Below are positions 1 to 7,502 of a DNA stretch of 64,000 bases, in pieces. Position 1 is the first letter of the stretch, and each line of letters starts with the position of its first letter. The notes under the pieces are model-generated. The model worked only from the letters and a program-made list of their open reading frames with translations. It was not told the DNA's origin and searched no databases. The position numbers were made by a program, and so were the translations under genes. Where the stretch lies: positions 3,286,001-3,350,000 of the forward strand of contig NC_005027.1 of NCBI RefSeq assembly GCF_000196115.1. Direction: 5' to 3'. Source of the DNA: Rhodopirellula baltica SH 1 (GTDB taxonomy: Bacteria; Planctomycetota; Planctomycetia; Pirellulales; Pirellulaceae).

Positions 1-1961
1 CTTGGCTGGACGCGAATGGCATTCTCGTAGGCTTTTGCAGCTTCCAAGTAATCGCCGCGTTGCTCGCTAAGCGATGCCCATGCCATGTGAGCGCCGGCTC
101 GGTCCGACGCCAACATCAACTCATCTTCGATCGCATCGATCGCCAAGTCGGCTTGCTTTTGCCGCGTACCAGAAAGCGTCTGATAGCCACCTGACGACAC
201 CAACGCCTTCGTCGCTTCGCTGCGAACCAACTGAGAAGAATCCTTCAACAGTGGCATCAAAATTTTCACGGCGTCCGATGGACTGCTTGCTCCCATCACT
301 CGCGCCGCCGTCGCCCGAAGAATCGGATGCTCACTCGGATCCTTCAAAACTGTTTTCGCGGCGGAGATCGCTTCTCGGCCTCGACCGTTCTGCAGAAGCT
401 CATCCAGCGTTGTCGCACGTGCCAGCACAGGAGCGATCTCAGGAGGTTGTGTCACGTACCGCAGTGCTTTTGAAACGATGCCTGAATCGCCCGTTCGCAG
501 TCCCGCCAGGATCTCGCCATAGTGTGCCGGAGTCTGGCGGTTGTCGCCATACCACTTCTCACAAGCTTCATCGCACCACTGATCGGTTTTCGAGATTGCG
601 TCGGCGACTTCTTCATCGCCTTCCGAAGCAGCCAATAGCCAATCCTGGTACAGCGTCAGCGATTCTCGTTTGTCTGCGGAGATGCTTTCGAGCTGATCCT
701 TTACATGGCAACTGCTGCATGCGTTCGGCGTCCCGATGGAAACGGATAGATCCGGCCGGGGAACTCGCAAGCTATGGTCGCGGCGTGGATCAACTTCCAT
801 GTACGTCGTGTGAGGCATGTGGCAATTGACGCACTTCGCACCCTCGGAACCAACCGCGTGATGATGATGAGATGGAACGTCATACTTTCCTGCGGCGTGC
901 TGGTGGCAAGACGTACAAGTTTCATTGCCAGGATGCTTCAATTCCAACGAGTGCGGGTCATGACAGTCCGTGCATCGGATTCCCTTGTGAAACATCTTGC
1001 TCTGCACAAACGATCCATAGACATAAACTTCGTCTTTGATCTGCCCGTCATCGTGGTAAGTATCACCGCGAAGCAATTCCAAGTTGAAGTGACTGCAGAA
1101 CGGATCGCCCGCCTGGTAGTCCGCATCCATCACACTCCTGCGACTGTGACACGGCGCGCACGCTTCCAATTGGCCGGTAGCGTCCTCGCCCTTTAATTGA
1201 GCAAGCCCGTAGCCATGGTGCCGATCCCAAAAAAGCGAGTTCCCACGAGCCATCTCGATGTGCAAACTTGCGGGACCGTGACAAGCTTCGCAACTAACGT
1301 CGATCTCTGAAAACGTTGTGTGGTAGGTCAGCGTTTCGACATCGTGGTTCGTCTTCAAGTTGGTCGAGTGACAATCCGCGCACATGGTTTGCCAACGCTG
1401 AGCCACACCGGTCCAGTGCAATGGGTCGTCGGGTTCAAGCTTCTCAGGCACATCCGGCGGACGCAAATAGAACCACTCTTCGCGCTGGGTATCCCAACTG
1501 ATTCTCAAGACTTGCAAACGCCCGATCTCATCCTCGCTCGCCTCCGGATCGCGATCAAACTCGACCATGTATTGCTGCAGCGGGTCGACTCCGAACACAT
1601 ACTTCACCTCGAAATCCTGCATCTCACCATCGGGGCCTTCGGTATGGACCATGAACCGGCCGCCGTCTCGAAACAGTCGGTTCTGCAATCCGTCATGCTC
1701 GAAGACGACATCGTTGAAATTGCCGATGACGCTTTCGTCAGTCGCCACATCCATGGCCAAATCATGGTGAGAACCTTTGAAGGCCAATGATTCGGTTTGG
1801 TGGCACTCAACGCAGGCATCTCGCCCGACATAAGTCGCAACCGCAGTTTTAGGCAGACCGGTGAAATAGTCCGCGGCAACAACGCCCGTGATCAACACGA
1901 CCAGAGAGACGAAGACCAGCGTCAACGGTCGCTTGAGTTGATTTCGAAGGGCGAGAAGCAT
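1..1961 (-). CDS. Octahaem c-type cytochrome with HEAT/TPR-like C-terminus (partial)
   Basis: The minus-strand frame is open from 1961 to the left edge, so the C-terminus is missing. It starts MLLALRNQLKR and has one hydrophobic segment (about residues 11-27), which could be an uncleaved anchor or a signal peptide. I read eight CXXCH haem c motifs in order: CVECH, CADCH, CEACH, CAPCH, CTDCH, CTSCH, CVNCH and CSSCH, between about 1825 and 680. After the last haem come alpha-helical HEAT-like stretches and then a TPR-like stretch (AWASLSEQRGDYLEAAKAY). This resembles the cytochrome c554 or doubled-CXXCH families that planctomycetes fuse to TPRs. It is probably periplasmic and involved in electron transfer; the substrate is unknown. 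It lies 81 bases after the preceding exported-protein gene, so it could be the last gene of that operon. Confidence 0.85.
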   Translation of the reverse strand, partial: MLLALRNQLKRPLTLVFVSLVVLITGVVAADYFTGLPKTAVATYVGRDACVECHQTESLAFKGSHHDLAMDVATDESVIGNFNDVVFEHDGLQNRLFRDGGRFMVHTEGPDGEMQDFEVKYVFGVDPLQQYMVEFDRDPEASEDEIGRLQVLRISWDTQREEWFYLRPPDVPEKLEPDDPLHWTGVAQRWQTMCADCHSTNLKTNHDVETLTYHTTFSEIDVSCEACHGPASLHIEMARGNSLFWDRHHGYGLAQLKGEDATGQLEACAPCHSRRSVMDADYQAGDPFCSHFNLELLRGDTYHDDGQIKDEVYVYGSFVQSKMFHKGIRCTDCHDPHSLELKHPGNETCTSCHQHAAGKYDVPSHHHHAVGSEGAKCVNCHMPHTTYMEVDPRRDHSLRVPRPDLSVSIGTPNACSSCHVKDQLESISADKRESLTLYQDWLLAASEGDEEVADAISKTDQWCDEACEKWYGDNRQTPAHYGEILAGLRTGDSGIVSKALRYVTQPPEIAPVLARATTLDELLQNGRGREAISAAKTVLKDPSEHPILRATAARVMGASSPSDAVKILMPLLKDSSQLVRSEATKALVSSGGYQTLSGTRQKQADLAIDAIEDELMLASDRAGAHMAWASLSEQRGDYLEAAKAYENAIRVQP

Positions 1962-2042: not shown

Positions 2043-2666
2043 TTACTCGCTGGAAGCGTTCAGACCACTCTGCATCAGCTGAACCGCACGTAGCCGCATC
2101 TGATAAACAAGCGTCTCAACCGGAAGCATGTCTGCACGGGGCTTCACCAAATCGTCGCTACCAATGATTCGCGGGACGCGATTTGTTTTTGAAAACGGAC
2201 TCGTCTTCTCCAGTCTTCGTGCCGTCGCCAACAATTGTTCAGCCAATCGGAAGGACTCTGCTGGTCCAGGCAATCGCTTGGAGGCAGTTTCGCCAGATTC
2301 TGAACCGGCGGCCCTCCCACTGACAGCATCGCCGAGAGGATCAATCTGAGAGTCCAAGACGGATCCATCCAGTACGCTGCCACGTTTTCGTATGACGCTC
2401 AGCACGTCGTCCAACATGCCATCGCCAGTTGGATTGAGCGGATCACCCTCAAGTGCTTTCTGAATCTTTTCCTCCGCTTCGTCCGCGGGTGTACCGTTGG
2501 GCGTCTCAACCGTCGGCAACTCCAATTCCTTCCAATCGTCCGTGGGCGGCTGAGCGATCACCGTCGTTGATATCGACATCAACATCACGGCGAGCGTCAT
2601 TCTGCCGCCAAACCACCGATTTTTCTTCTCAAAGTGATCCATGGGTCCATCCGTTGGGAGTGTCAT
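2043..2666 (-). CDS. Small exported protein of unknown function, last of GTPase/ExbB overlap group
   Basis: 207 residues. A basic N-terminus (DHFEKKNRWFGGR) is followed by a hydrophobic core (MTLAVMLMSISTTVIA), which looks like a Sec signal peptide. The mature part is polar and probably helical, with no recognised domain; residues 140-207 contain AEQLLATARRLEKTS and VYQMRLRAVQLMQSG. The start at 2666 gives an ATGA overlap with the ExbB-like gene; an alternative start (MDHFEK) lies eight codons later. Translational coupling to the channel gene suggests a periplasmic partner or substrate of that channel, but this is inference only. Confidence 0.75.
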   Translation of the reverse strand: MTLPTDGPMDHFEKKNRWFGGRMTLAVMLMSISTTVIAQPPTDDWKELELPTVETPNGTPADEAEEKIQKALEGDPLNPTGDGMLDDVLSVIRKRGSVLDGSVLDSQIDPLGDAVSGRAAGSESGETASKRLPGPAESFRLAEQLLATARRLEKTSPFSKTNRVPRIIGSDDLVKPRADMLPVETLVYQMRLRAVQLMQSGLNASSE

Positions 2667-3493
2667 CGGGTTCCATCTTGTTCAGGACGCGGTGCTTTGC
2701 GGCCGGGCATTTGAGCCGGTGGCACAGCAACGATTCTTCCGCCGCCAGGCGTACTCGCCGAAACCAATCGAGATGTTGCGGCCGCTCTTCGGCGAAGCGG
2801 AGCCAAAGCTCGATCCGCGTGCATTGTGACATCAGACAACAATGCGTCCACTCGATTTCGCAAAACACCCGATGCGGCAAGAGCCGGAATTGCGACCAGC
2901 AATCCACCAACCGTCGTGACCAGCGCCTGGTAAATACCCTCCGCCAAGTCACCAGCACCGGCGACACCACGTGTCGCCGCGACTTGACGAAATGCGAAGA
3001 TCATTCCCGTCACGGTTCCGAGCAACCCGACCATCGGTGCCAAATTCGCAATCATCGCCAAGTAGTCGATTCGCCGAAGCATCCGAGACGATTGGTCGAC
3101 CAATGCGTCCTCGACTGACTTTTCGACTTCCGGCCATCCGTACTCTCGATGATTCAATCCAACCGCAATGATCCCCGCCAGAACGCTGGGTTTCTGACGC
3201 AGCAACGTCTCAGCTTCCGCGACGCGAGAAGACTGCAAGGCAGCTGCCACTTCTTCGCTCAGCTTATCAGGAACCACATCTTGACAACGAAGCGCCAACG
3301 ATTGATCGACCACCAAGTAAACCGCCGCGATACTGAATGACAACAGTACAAACAGGATCATCAACCCAGGAATCCCACCGCTGGTCACGATCGACCATAT
3401 CGACTCCGGTTTCCCGGCTGGGACTTCTCCTTGAGAGAGCATCTGCGCCCATAGCATGTTGTTAGCAAGATCCGGCAGCTTGTTTCCAATCAT
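2663..3493 (-). CDS. MotA/TolQ/ExbB-family proton channel protein
   Basis: 276 residues. There are three predicted membrane segments at about 41-62, 145-168 and 188-212. The pattern around segments two and three (ANLAPMVGLLGTVTGMI, then ALVTTVGGLLVAIPAL) is the MotA/TolQ/ExbB signature. A cytoplasmic helical loop (70-140) separates the first two segments, and the C-terminal tail is basic and proline-rich. Family members form the proton-conducting stator that energises outer-membrane or flagellar machines, normally with an ExbD/TolR partner. No ExbD-like gene is present in this window. The gene overlaps both neighbours by four bases (ATGA), so it is probably co-translated with the GTPases upstream and the exported protein downstream. 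Confidence 0.9.
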   Translation of the reverse strand: MIGNKLPDLANNMLWAQMLSQGEVPAGKPESIWSIVTSGGIPGLMILFVLLSFSIAAVYLVVDQSLALRCQDVVPDKLSEEVAAALQSSRVAEAETLLRQKPSVLAGIIAVGLNHREYGWPEVEKSVEDALVDQSSRMLRRIDYLAMIANLAPMVGLLGTVTGMIFAFRQVAATRGVAGAGDLAEGIYQALVTTVGGLLVAIPALAASGVLRNRVDALLSDVTMHADRALAPLRRRAAATSRLVSASTPGGGRIVAVPPAQMPGRKAPRPEQDGTR

Positions 3494-5310
3494 CGTTCTC
3501 CATCCACTGCTCGGCCAACCGACAACAAAAACTCCGCATCGGCGAGCAATGGATCACTCCACGCCAAACGCAGCACACCGTCACGCTGCAATCTCTGAAT
3601 CAATTGCTCGTGTTCTTCTCGCAAACGAATTTCGATGCGATCAACTCGCGCCTTCGCTTGAACCCACGAAAGCACCAGCATCGAAAAGATCGCCACAGGC
3701 AAAACAGACAAGAGCAAGCTGGTCAGCATCATCGACACATCGGGACGCGGAAACTTGCCTAAATCTCCTGCGACGCCTTCGGCTTGCAACACGTCTCGCA
3801 TCGTCGAATAACTTGCGTCGAAGTAGCCTCTGTACAGTGCCACGAGTGGCCCGGTCATCAACAGCCAAAACAGCAGTGTTCCAGCGAGCCCCGCCACATT
3901 GGCGAACCAAGTCGTCGCGGAACCTTGGCTGATCGCGGTATCAAACGACTTCTGCGATGACTCCTGCAAAGTTTCGATCCCCGCCAAGGATGCAACCGGT
4001 GCGTCGGGCGAAGACTCGATCTCCGTTTCGATCGTTCCATGGCGGAGTTTGTTCAGCTCAGCCCGAAAACGTCTTGCCATCGGCCCCAATCGATCCGCCA
4101 CCGAGGCCGCTGTTCGTTGTCGCAATCCGGTCCGCAAATCCATGTCAGCGGCTCGTTGATCACTCACGTTTCGAGCCCCCGCGTAAACGGCACCGATCAA
4201 CGAAGGCAACGACCCCGACAATGACAACAACACACGATCCCACGCACCGTGAGTCAAATTCAGCAATGACAACAGCGTTCGATAAGGAAACCAAATCGCG
4301 GCAGTGTCAGCCATCAGCGAAAGACGCAGCCGACTGCGAATCGCGGCTCGTAGTGGCGTCGTTCCACCGAGCAACGTTCCCGCCACTTCGGAAGGCAAAC
4401 GCGTCGCTTCCGCATTCAGTCGATCAACGGCATTGGTTAATTCTGGCAACTGAGTTTGCAACACAGAGGCTACCGCTGCGGAGAAACGTGCATCCAAAGC
4501 GGACAGCCGAGTGCTCCGACGTTGGTCACCGCCGCCCGATTCGCAGATGGCTTCTTCAATTCGGCGTCCCAAGGTCTCAGCCAGTTGGATGCCGATTTCA
4601 TCTTCACCACGAGCGTCGATTTCAAAATCGCTGACAATCACCGCGGGAGCAATCTGGCTCTGTGGTGCCGTCGATCGCAAACGTGCAACCAAAGCCTCGA
4701 CGTCGGCATCCAACGAATCATCATTGACGTCGGCCATGTTCACGACGGGAATGACGACGGTGCCTTCGGAGGCGGCTGCCAACCCCGATACACGCTGGCT
4801 TCGCAATTGATCGCGTCGAATGACCATCACCAAGACAGACGCGGTCGACAACGCTCGCTCAGCCACTCCCGCGATCGCCCGTCGATCATCGGTTGCGCCC
4901 GGAGCGTCGACCAGCAAGTAAGGCGAACCGATCGATCGCATTTTGCCGGCGTCGCACGCCAGAAAACGTTCGTGGCGAGCATCCAAGTCAGCAGGCGGTT
5001 TCGGTCCGATCCAAGTCAGTTTTTCAGTCGCTTCGTCAAGCGAGTTGCCGCTTCGAATCGCATCGACCGGACCGCCTCGAATCATTTGGCGAACCAACCA
5101 TGACTTGCCCTGTCCGGTTGCTCCCACGACGGCGACGACGACCGAATTGGATGCTCGGTCGGTCAAAATCATTTCGCGAGCTTCCGCATGATCGCGGCAG
5201 AGTTCGCCAATCTCACGCCCAGTTTGGCTGTTGCCCAGCACCCGGTCCGCGGCGTGGTGAACACGCTGCAAAAAACGATCACCCGAGTCATCCATCACAA
5301 TTGCGTTCAT
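3490..5310 (-). CDS. Membrane-associated P-loop GTPase (TRAFAC, Era/dynamin-like)
   Basis: 606 residues. The G1 P-loop GATGQGKS is at about 63-70, a G3-like DAPG follows in LLVDAPGATDD, and a G4-like NMAD occurs in VVNMADVNDD. This supports a guanine-nucleotide-binding P-loop domain at the N-terminus. The C-terminal half has two hydrophobic segments (around WFANVAGLAGTLLFWLLM and MMLTSLLLSVLPVAIFSML) and then a charged helix (IEIRLREEHEQLIQRLQ). The layout of N-terminal GTPase, helical middle and C-terminal membrane hairpin resembles bacterial dynamin-like or YcjX-type proteins, but I cannot assign a named family. The gene overlaps both neighbours by four bases. Confidence 0.8.
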   Translation of the reverse strand: MNAIVMDDSGDRFLQRVHHAADRVLGNSQTGREIGELCRDHAEAREMILTDRASNSVVVAVVGATGQGKSWLVRQMIRGGPVDAIRSGNSLDEATEKLTWIGPKPPADLDARHERFLACDAGKMRSIGSPYLLVDAPGATDDRRAIAGVAERALSTASVLVMVIRRDQLRSQRVSGLAAASEGTVVIPVVNMADVNDDSLDADVEALVARLRSTAPQSQIAPAVIVSDFEIDARGEDEIGIQLAETLGRRIEEAICESGGGDQRRSTRLSALDARFSAAVASVLQTQLPELTNAVDRLNAEATRLPSEVAGTLLGGTTPLRAAIRSRLRLSLMADTAAIWFPYRTLLSLLNLTHGAWDRVLLSLSGSLPSLIGAVYAGARNVSDQRAADMDLRTGLRQRTAASVADRLGPMARRFRAELNKLRHGTIETEIESSPDAPVASLAGIETLQESSQKSFDTAISQGSATTWFANVAGLAGTLLFWLLMTGPLVALYRGYFDASYSTMRDVLQAEGVAGDLGKFPRPDVSMMLTSLLLSVLPVAIFSMLVLSWVQAKARVDRIEIRLREEHEQLIQRLQRDGVLRLAWSDPLLADAEFLLSVGRAVDGER

Positions 5311-7502
5311 CGCAGGACTCCTGATTCAGCAGGTGAGCCACCGGCCCGTTTGCTCGCTCCGGTTGGCCGAGGTAACAACCGTTTCAGTTCAGCAATGAAC
5401 TCATCCCGAACCCGATACAGCGACACCATTCTTTCAGGAGGTTCGCCACTGGCAATTCGCGATGGCGGCAAGGTGACGTCCACATTGCCCACTCGTACGT
5501 CCATCGGTGGATCTGGCCGAGCCACACCGAGCTCATCACACAGCACCGCCAAAAAATCAGCGAGTTGTTGACGTGCGGCCTGTTGGCTGACGTCTTGCGT
5601 TCCCCGATTAGCTGCCCACATCGTCGACATGATCGTCAGCCCCGCAGCAGCCAGCATCTCTGGAATCGATGCGGCCAGAATTGCATTGGCACCTAGATCA
5701 ACAGGAATCATCAGCACCGCACCAAAGGTTGCAAAGAGTGCCGCGAGTGGAGTCAGTCCCGTCGCGATCTTTCGATGCACAGGCACTTCGGACCACATTT
5801 GCCGAACAGCGGTATCCAAACGTCGCGGATCCAACGTCGTAAAATCATCTTGTTCGAATCGCAAGACCGCTCGCTCGACCGGTTCACGGAATGCCGAAAC
5901 ACCGTCCTCCGACGCTGACGTGTGATCCGAAGTCTCGGCAAGATGTGTCAAAACCGTCGTTCCACCATGGCGTTCAATCTCGTTGATCAAACCGGTTGGC
6001 TCAATCAGCCCACCATATTCACCACTTCGGAATCGCCCTTTGATATCATCGGCGGCGCGGCGTGACACGGCCGTCGGCGTTAGATTGCGAATGAAGTCAC
6101 CCGCCCCTCCGACGACGCGTCGCAGCGTCGCGTTCAGGCGAACTCCCCAGCGAGCGTACCAAGGTGCGGTCGCCGCGAACGATTCACTGAGCTGGCGAAT
6201 AATGCGTTCGCTCTGATGCAAGCGCAGCTCAATCACCTCGCCGCCAATTTTTCGATGAGCGAAATATTCCAACGCCGAATCCAGCAACACCTGTTGGCAC
6301 TGACGCGTTTTCTCAAACGACTGATCCGCATCCCGCCGAATCGACTCCAGGCCCTGGTTCCAAACCGCATCTTCTAAGTTGATTCGAAGGGCTTGATGCA
6401 ATTGCGAAAACAGAACTCCGCGGTCCAGCTTGGACGGCAACGCCTGCAACAATCGATCCTCATCAATCGCCGCGGGTGGATTGCTATCAGGATCTTCGCT
6501 AACGGAAAAGAACACCGGCAATGGATCGGGATCGTCTTCTCGCTGAAGGTCTGATTCCTGCGCAGAGATTGCATCGCGTTGCGGATGCTGACCACCAAAC
6601 GCCGGGATGAAAGGGCGGCTCGAAGGAACATCAAAGTCGTAAGCGGCATAGAGCGTTCCGACACCATATTTTTGAACCAAAGGTGCAAACGTTTCGTGCA
6701 CTTGGTCCGGTGTTTGCCGCGGACGCACCTTGTTGACCGCCAACATTCGAGGCACACCTGGCATTAAATCGGAAGCAATGCGAAGCAAATCCGCCAGTGT
6801 CGTGTCGCGAGATGATTCAGCGCCGGTCACGATCAAGAACGCGGAACACAACGTCGCCGCGCGGCCCAACAATTCGCGACGTTGTTCAGGTGATCCCAAC
6901 CCAAACTCTTCATCCGAAACGATGTCAGGACAATCCAGCAAACCAACGCCAACTTCGTCGAGCCCGGGATCGGTGCCCAACAACGGCACGGACAACAACG
7001 ATGCATCGCCGTCTCGATTGTTGTACTGCTCTGCCGCGATATCAGGATCGAGAGACAACTCCTCGGGCGCGTTGCCCAGCGAATCACCGATTCGCGTGAT
7101 CAGAAGACTCCATAGCTCCACGTCCGAGCGCCAACTCTGTGGCAACCACAAGACAAATCGATGCGTCCCATGCCGGTTGCTCGTTCCTCGTAGCGTTCGG
7201 CGTTGGCCGGCTTCCGATAGAAACGAACTGACCAGGCTCGTCTTCCCGCTATTCAGCATTCCGGAAACAGCGATCGTGGGTCGATCGATCAATTTGGAAG
7301 CGGTGTGAAGTCGTCGCCCCGCCGCCAAGGTGGCCTGCGATTGTGCCGTTTCAATCCGCCGCAACGCAGTCAGATAGCTCTCGCGACCTTCACTGGGCGC
7401 AATTCGCGAAACCGCTGCCCGTCGATCATCGTCTTCCAACAAAGACAGCAACGCCGGCCAATCCACCGACGAGTCTTTTGTGGAACGTCGCAATGGAAAC
7501 AT
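5307..7502 (-). CDS. Large P-loop GTPase with C-terminal membrane segments (dynamin-like), first gene of overlap operon
   Basis: 731 residues. The P-loop GMLNSGKT is at about 81-88. A G3-type stretch (GLLDCPDIVSDEE) has DCPD instead of DxxG, and a possible G4 is VNKVRPRQ (NKxR rather than NKxD). The changed G3 and G4 suggest altered nucleotide handling or an inactive enzyme. A long helical middle follows (SFEKTRQCQQVLLDSALEYF). Near 595-640 there are hydrophobic segments (LTPLAALFATFGAVLMI and ILAASIPEMLAAAGLTIM). The downstream GTPase overlaps by four bases. Paired GTPases recall the two-subunit bacterial dynamins, but the similarity is architectural only. The start at 7502 has no clear Shine-Dalgarno; the 78-base gap to galE could hold its promoter. 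Confidence 0.8.
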   Translation of the reverse strand: MFPLRRSTKDSSVDWPALLSLLEDDDRRAAVSRIAPSEGRESYLTALRRIETAQSQATLAAGRRLHTASKLIDRPTIAVSGMLNSGKTSLVSSFLSEAGQRRTLRGTSNRHGTHRFVLWLPQSWRSDVELWSLLITRIGDSLGNAPEELSLDPDIAAEQYNNRDGDASLLSVPLLGTDPGLDEVGVGLLDCPDIVSDEEFGLGSPEQRRELLGRAATLCSAFLIVTGAESSRDTTLADLLRIASDLMPGVPRMLAVNKVRPRQTPDQVHETFAPLVQKYGVGTLYAAYDFDVPSSRPFIPAFGGQHPQRDAISAQESDLQREDDPDPLPVFFSVSEDPDSNPPAAIDEDRLLQALPSKLDRGVLFSQLHQALRINLEDAVWNQGLESIRRDADQSFEKTRQCQQVLLDSALEYFAHRKIGGEVIELRLHQSERIIRQLSESFAATAPWYARWGVRLNATLRRVVGGAGDFIRNLTPTAVSRRAADDIKGRFRSGEYGGLIEPTGLINEIERHGGTTVLTHLAETSDHTSASEDGVSAFREPVERAVLRFEQDDFTTLDPRRLDTAVRQMWSEVPVHRKIATGLTPLAALFATFGAVLMIPVDLGANAILAASIPEMLAAAGLTIMSTMWAANRGTQDVSQQAARQQLADFLAVLCDELGVARPDPPMDVRVGNVDVTLPPSRIASGEPPERMVSLYRVRDEFIAELKRLLPRPTGASKRAGGSPAESGVLR

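Follow-up and report, generated by a model that had tools for sequence, protein, structure and literature searches.

A predicted dynamin-like GTPase pair shares an overlapping gene unit with a predicted TolQ-like motor subunit in Rhodopirellula baltica and some of its relatives

A 64,000-nucleotide stretch of the genome of the planctomycete Rhodopirellula baltica SH 1 (NC_005027.1, positions 3,286,001 to 3,350,000; hereafter the window), a genome that is a single contig of 7,145,576 bases, carries on its minus strand a unit of four genes, here called A to D. By predicted fold, A and B are a bacterial dynamin-like protein (DLP) pair, and by sequence kinship C is the TolQ-like subunit of a vWA-type motor found throughout the family Pirellulaceae. 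These identities, set at the level of family or fold and including the kinship of C with the motor, are assigned with high confidence. Both components are thus of known kinds, and what is new is the link between them: a gene of the motor has moved out of the motor operon and into that of the dynamin pair, where its reading frame overlaps that of B in most cases (26 of 36 linked loci). The co-occurrence of A and B, the recurrent overlap of B with C and the kinship of C with ExbBs that adjoin ExbD1 and ExbD2 are computational observations. That the heterotypic DLP pair and the overlapping ExbB of a vWA-class motor would also be functionally coupled is a reading on which we are evenly balanced.

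Gene A (5307..7502, minus strand, 731 aa) and gene B (3490..5310, minus strand, 606 aa) are open reading frames (ORFs) with different P-loops, GMLNSGKT at residues 81-88 of A (7239..7262) and GATGQGKS at residues 63-70 of B (5101..5124). Residues G81, N84, G86 and K87 of A are invariant in an alignment of 56 A proteins (GxxNxGK), as are G63, G66, Q67, G68 and K69 of B in an alignment of 53 B proteins (GxxGQGK). Two GTPases with distinct P-loops and with membrane segments towards their C-termini had been read from the DNA beforehand, and both features are confirmed, the latter as hydrophobic stretches at residues 583-625 of A and at 472-490 and 532-550 of B. Classifying the GTPases from sequence alone was tried and rejected: searches of Pfam, NCBIfam and PDB sequences gave only sub-threshold matches, and neither protein matched a solved DLP significantly. 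The predicted structures are more informative. For B, Foldseek places the AlphaFold2 model (mean pLDDT 83.9) nearest, among PDB entries, to BDLP (6.7e-9), followed by chain C of 5owv, a solved bacterial dynamin pair (2.8e-8). In the two entries for that pair (5owv, 5oxf), chain A stands at ranks 4 and 8 for protein A and chain C at ranks 2 and 3 for protein B; judging by length, chain A would be DLP1 and chain C DLP2. Both models combine a G domain with a helical neck or trunk formed by N- and C-terminal helices, as expected of the dynamin fold. As DLPs, A and B would be expected to bind lipid, hydrolyse GTP and oligomerise; their sequences contain hydrophobic tip segments. The original prediction had named a match of the GTPases to a described system among the outcomes that would speak against it; by predicted fold they do match a described kind, the bacterial DLP pairs.

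The distribution of the two genes is that of a pair. A and B occur in the identical 56 of 149 family genomes (17 of 68 genera). They are no more than 3 kb apart in 37 of these, or in 38 when genome G340 is counted, where the two are adjacent and were scored apart by merged coordinates. In G340 (L167, C2:6000-24000) the A-B pair is tandemly duplicated, the copies being spaced about 6.9 kb apart and looking identical in the parts compared. Beyond the family, A was matched in 42 of 296 genomes of the order, some weakly, and a full-length A with an adjoining B is present in two genomes of another family (G470, G501), with no recognised ExbB within the 10-12 kb around these pairs. A single-sequence search with B through 294 genomes of the phylum gave two matches, including the window's own genome, and a profile search gave three, the third being a weak match in another family (E 1.6e-5). 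Most bacterial DLPs are described as side-by-side operon pairs (PMC6104087), and the adjacency of A and B in the family and in G470 and G501 agrees with this rule. They share with Campylobacter Cj-DLP1/2, and with LeoA, IniA, BDLP and DynA/B, the arrangement of two adjacent large GTPases, hydrophobic tips and a predicted dynamin-superfamily fold, but differ in the absence of a significant sequence match, in atypical G3 and G4 motifs and in the ExbB gene that overlaps the second GTPase gene. The third, weak match of the B profile is in a different family of the order (G206, L166:5729-9689). This protein resembles B weakly and has a G4 motif of canonical appearance (NKAD); a second protein with the P-loop GPSGAGKS overlaps it, so that the two may form a distant pair of NTPases.

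Gene C (2663..3493, minus strand, 276 aa) encodes the ExbB-type protein that the original prediction had noticed, a member of the MotA/TolQ/ExbB family (PF01618, E 2.7e-25, 89 bits against a cut-off of 22.9). With the cut set where the scores drop clearly, from 289.8 to 199.3 bits, a profile of C matches 137 of the 149 family genomes. For ExbD2, the profile was built from two sequences, and a cut at the drop from 70.8 to 59.5 bits keeps 133 genomes. Family-wide counts use the best match per genome and score genes on different contigs as not adjacent. Where does C reside when no DLP pair is present? Among the 93 family genomes without A and B, 72 have it no more than 3 kb from ExbD2; in the other 21, the two are on different contigs (7), far apart (2), represented by one partner only (4) or both below the cuts (8). 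Around C, in ten loci centred on it (L140-L149, eight of them from genomes without A and B), the full order vWA, TPR-type, ExbB (C), ExbD1, ExbD2 and a large exported TPR-like protein is found in five (L140, L141, L144, L146, L148), and parts of that order in the remaining five. TPR domains were tested in the second genes of L141 and L146, that gene being named by position elsewhere, and the clear TPR gene of the relatives reaches 31.8 bits (cut-off 26.3). The vWA proteins aligned from eight loci have a transmembrane (TM) helix with a serine and a histidine four residues apart, and one of the two scanned exceeds the Pfam VWA_2 cut-off. Residues T160, T193 and T194 are invariant in eight aligned ExbBs and may serve in the proton motor. 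E. coli ExbB has a glutamate in its third TM helix where C has a glutamine; the same glutamine occurs in relatives that adjoin ExbDs, so this substitution is uninformative.

This gene set corresponds to a class of force transducers driven by the proton-motive force (PMF) that was introduced in 2025 from the PVC (Planctomycetes, Verrucomicrobia, Chlamydiae) group (PMC12204202). The C-centred loci of the family share with it a TolQ-like gene, two TolR-like genes that differ from each other, a TPR-type gene and a vWA protein anchored by a TM helix that holds a TonB-like histidine. The genes are said there to be "often" together, so that clustering is not strictly defining for the vWA motor. Two differences stand out: in R. 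baltica the genes are found in three places, with the TolQ-like gene in the dynamin operon, and the section on the vWA motor mentions no GTPases. Compared with Tol-Pal and TonB-ExbBD, the likeness lies in an ExbB/ExbD-type motor with conserved threonine positions and in the serine and histidine of the transducer TM helix, whereas a vWA domain replaces the C-terminal domain of TolA or TonB. A TolQ/TolR-type motor functionally tied to a GTPase also has a parallel in the AglRQS-MglA gliding motor of Myxococcus, although MglA is a small Ras-like GTPase rather than a dynamin-like membrane GTPase such as A or B, and the likeness drawn here is one of arrangement.

The motor parts sought are present but scattered in this genome, with the motor ExbB in the dynamin operon. 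The original prediction saw no ExbD, which is correct for the window and not for the genome: genome-wide there are eight ExbD matches (PF02472) and eight MotA/ExbB matches, and the eight ExbDs all lie outside the window. At 1.505 Mb (L132, 1503130-1506178, minus strand), an ExbD1 and an ExbD2 gene overlap each other (1505235-1505741 and 1505738-1506178; 80.5 and 86.8 bits with PF02472) and are followed by an overlapping gene for a 702-aa exported TPR-like protein, whose TPR matches (23.8 bits) are below the cut-off of 25. No ExbB was found within the 15 kb read around this pair, which is likely to represent the detached partners of C. In a relative (L079, UBA6163, whose coordinates mark it as the record of genome G442) B, C, ExbD1 and ExbD2 stand in a row, and among the eight ExbDs of R. 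baltica the two ExbDs of this locus are closest to the 1.505 Mb pair (84.7 against 65.9 bits and 85.1 against 45.8 bits). A vWA-type protein is encoded at 2819950-2821104; it scores 257 bits with the family profile, has the sequence SCLVH in a TM helix (SxxxH) and a DxSxS motif, and reaches 25.9 bits with VWA_2, 1.1 below the Pfam cut-off of 27.

As for the other ExbBs of the genome, those at 0.60, 2.03, 5.81 and 6.50 Mb have a nearby ExbD, and the one at 4.96 Mb has by eye a MotB-like neighbour. Next to two further ExbB-like genes, at 0.457 and 6.640 Mb, stand proteins with one TM segment and no ExbD match, which tells against the pairing proposed here; the assignment of the 1.505 Mb ExbDs to C accordingly rests on L079 and on the family order, not on elimination. 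At the first of these two sites (L134, 453154-457825, minus strand) a 499-aa ExbB-like protein is followed by overlapping 702-aa and 356-aa proteins, each with one N-terminal TM segment by eye and no ExbD match, the 702-aa protein being without a Pfam match. At the second (L139, 6639175-6640721, minus strand) a 222-aa ExbB-like protein overlaps a 293-aa partner that has no Pfam match and whose N-terminal TM segment, LTPLMDLLLIIVF, is ExbD-like by eye.

The four minus-strand genes are joined, as originally predicted, by three ATGA overlaps, at 5307..5310 (A/B), 3490..3493 (B/C) and 2663..2666 (C/D), all of which recur in relatives. An in-frame overlap is possible at the A/B junction in 20 of 39 linked loci (4 nt in 18, 1 nt in 2), at B/C in 26 of 36 (4 nt in 23, 1 nt in 3) and at C/D in 10 of 11 (4 nt in 9, 1 nt in 1). 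These counts refer to distinct linked loci, after eight loci that repeated genomes already counted were dropped, and they omit junctions in which a gene is split, the strands differ or the ORF ends match poorly (L043, L055, L085, L087, L091, L101). It is this recurrence that takes the overlaps from A to D beyond chance.

The expectation that the gene order would be conserved in relatives holds in part. Of the 56 genomes with A and B, 29 have C beside B, and these belong to eight of the 17 genera. ExbD2 is above the cut in all 29 (in G313 just at it), 28 times elsewhere in the genome and once adjoining C. Profiles of ExbD1 and ExbD2 run over loci L040-L102 found no ExbD except in L079, and G442 is the one genome among the 149 in which C is beside both B and ExbD2. 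In two loci (L155, L157) ExbD1 but not ExbD2 adjoins C. On a tree of C proteins the label "beside B" needs 2 changes, against a mean of 15.5 for shuffled labels. The tree omits L083 (a repeat), L087 (broken B) and L101, groups L155 and L157 with the ExbD-linked loci though they are beside ExbD1 only, and gained no usable root from an outgroup of own-genome paralogues. In L079 and L082 A does not adjoin B. A divergent gene lies just upstream of B in both (L079:2066-3676 and L082:5144-6721), with the TM stretch WAISMLVH and, in L079, a squalene-cyclase-like domain.

How might the two parts work together? From the cytoplasmic side, A and B would dip hydrophobic tips into the inner membrane and, with GTP, tether or remodel that membrane. 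C, made by coupled synthesis, could then seed the proton motor where the dynamins act or close by; there C would assemble with ExbD1 and ExbD2 and drive the vWA transducer. Through this transducer, the motor would pull the outer envelope along, much as Tol-Pal does at the division septum. A bolder proposal, which we consider unlikely, is a composite machine: the GTP cycle of the DLPs would place or gate the proton motor, remodelling of the inner membrane and pulling of the outer envelope would go together, and the whole would substitute in part for the FtsZ/Tol-Pal division apparatus in some Pirellulaceae.

Several observations weigh against a coupled DLP-motor unit or against the assignments on which it is built. 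C is not beside B in 27 of the 56 genomes with A and B, and is beside ExbD2 in 12 of the 56; C and ExbD are moreover widespread in the 93 genomes without A and B, so neither part needs the other. The tree of C leaves 19 of its 47 inner branches open, its bootstrap had not settled, and the placement of two paralogues is left without resolution at a fork; with deep forks open, the tree does not establish a single origin of the B-C link. As for the GTPases, the fold matches have low TM-scores (0.17-0.35 by query length, among the top matches listed), and residue-level re-alignment of B with VIA puts the plain G domains of EF-Tu and Era first, above mitofusin, with SynDLP the sole bacterial DLP named among the best 50 rows. 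The canonical dynamin and GTPase motifs are DxPG for G3 and N/TKxD for G4. In A, G3 is a non-canonical DCPD and G4 a non-canonical NKVR or NRVP; in B, G3 is DAPG and G4 is not conserved. A profile alignment of A with B is not confident either (probability 8.9%). Lastly, that the DLPs physically touch the motor, where the two would act and whether they take part in invagination or budding are matters of inference, which also counts on this side.

The main rival is operon shuffling, in which the DLP pair and the motor are functionally unrelated and an ExbB came to lie behind B on one or a few occasions and has been inherited there since. It holds this place because of the genomes in which the link is missing, with C elsewhere or not found, and because the motor exists in genomes that have no DLP pair. 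It would also fit the scattering of the vWA motor genes in R. baltica, the fact that other kinds of gene follow the unit as well (a cytochrome c gene less than 100 nt behind D in 9 of 12 relatives checked) and the frequency of overlaps in the window, where 7 of 31 same-strand ORF neighbour pairs have them, three of the seven being the A to D junctions. However, shuffling accounts less readily for a B/C overlap kept in most linked loci, for a link found in eight genera, or for the rarity of a C that adjoins both B and ExbD2. We regard this explanation as quite possible, if somewhat short of probable.

Alternatively, C could be a GTPase-gated channel that works without ExbD, as the original prediction proposed from a window without ExbD in which C adjoins GTPases. 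This is very improbable, given the matching pair at 1.505 Mb, the presence of ExbD2 in every genome with C beside B and the place of C in one subfamily with ExbBs that adjoin ExbD1 and ExbD2. An ExbD pair that always accompanies this ExbB from elsewhere in the genome had itself been named as the outcome that would speak against the proposal, and this is largely what is seen. The wider suggestion made with it, of a machine that is nucleotide-gated or remodels membranes and is powered by proton flow, may still hold. Could C instead be an ordinary TonB-type or Tol-Pal energiser, with GTPases that only regulate nutrient uptake? It does score with the TolQ model (71 bits) and the ExbB model (41 bits), but far below their cut-offs of 221 and 206; in relatives its neighbours are of the vWA and TPR types; and an ordinary Tol-Pal system was rejected for this genome, in which the best TolB match is 84.4 bits against a cut-off of 343. 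We hold such an energiser to be highly doubtful.

Among the open-licence papers listed in the searches, none was seen that describes a DLP pair together with such a motor. The main text of a study of essential genes in Planctopirus (PMC10632474) has no ExbB, TolQ, dynamin, GTPase, MotA or Tol-Pal, and no dynamin passage was found in the accessible portion of PMC7203096. Dynamin-like pairs and PMF force transducers have hitherto each been studied apart. The B-C arrangement offers a testable link between GTP-driven remodelling of the inner membrane and proton-driven force on the outer envelope. Planctomycetes are described as being without recognisable FtsZ (PMC5147048). For budding bacteria without FtsZ, the DLP-motor cluster hints at a connection between reshaping and force across the envelope, and Rhodopirellula now has named motor genes as targets for tagging or deletion.

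Gene D (2043..2666, minus strand, ORF of 207 aa) has a signal-like N-terminus by eye, which accords with the exported protein first read at this position. No Pfam match was obtained at E <= 0.05, hence no ExbD match, and there is no strongly hydrophobic 19-residue segment at the threshold used. The motif GS[VI][LI]DGSxLD is conserved in 11 aligned relatives. A database search gave at least 28 homologues; seven among the matches listed carry a species name, six of them Rhodopirellula, Allorhodopirellula or Neorhodopirellula and one "Pirellulaceae bacterium". D is seen mainly in Rhodopirellula-type genomes, with a weaker match in K23_9 (L073).

About 80 nt downstream of D, a gene for a multihaem cytochrome c with several CxxCH motifs begins on the same strand (window 1-1961, minus strand) and runs past the start of the window. 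Its position close behind D suggests that the transcription unit may extend past D, and the homologue that follows D in relatives is of about 780 aa. After the cytochrome gene, the relatives often have a nucleotidyltransferase gene resembling mannose-1-phosphate guanylyltransferase.

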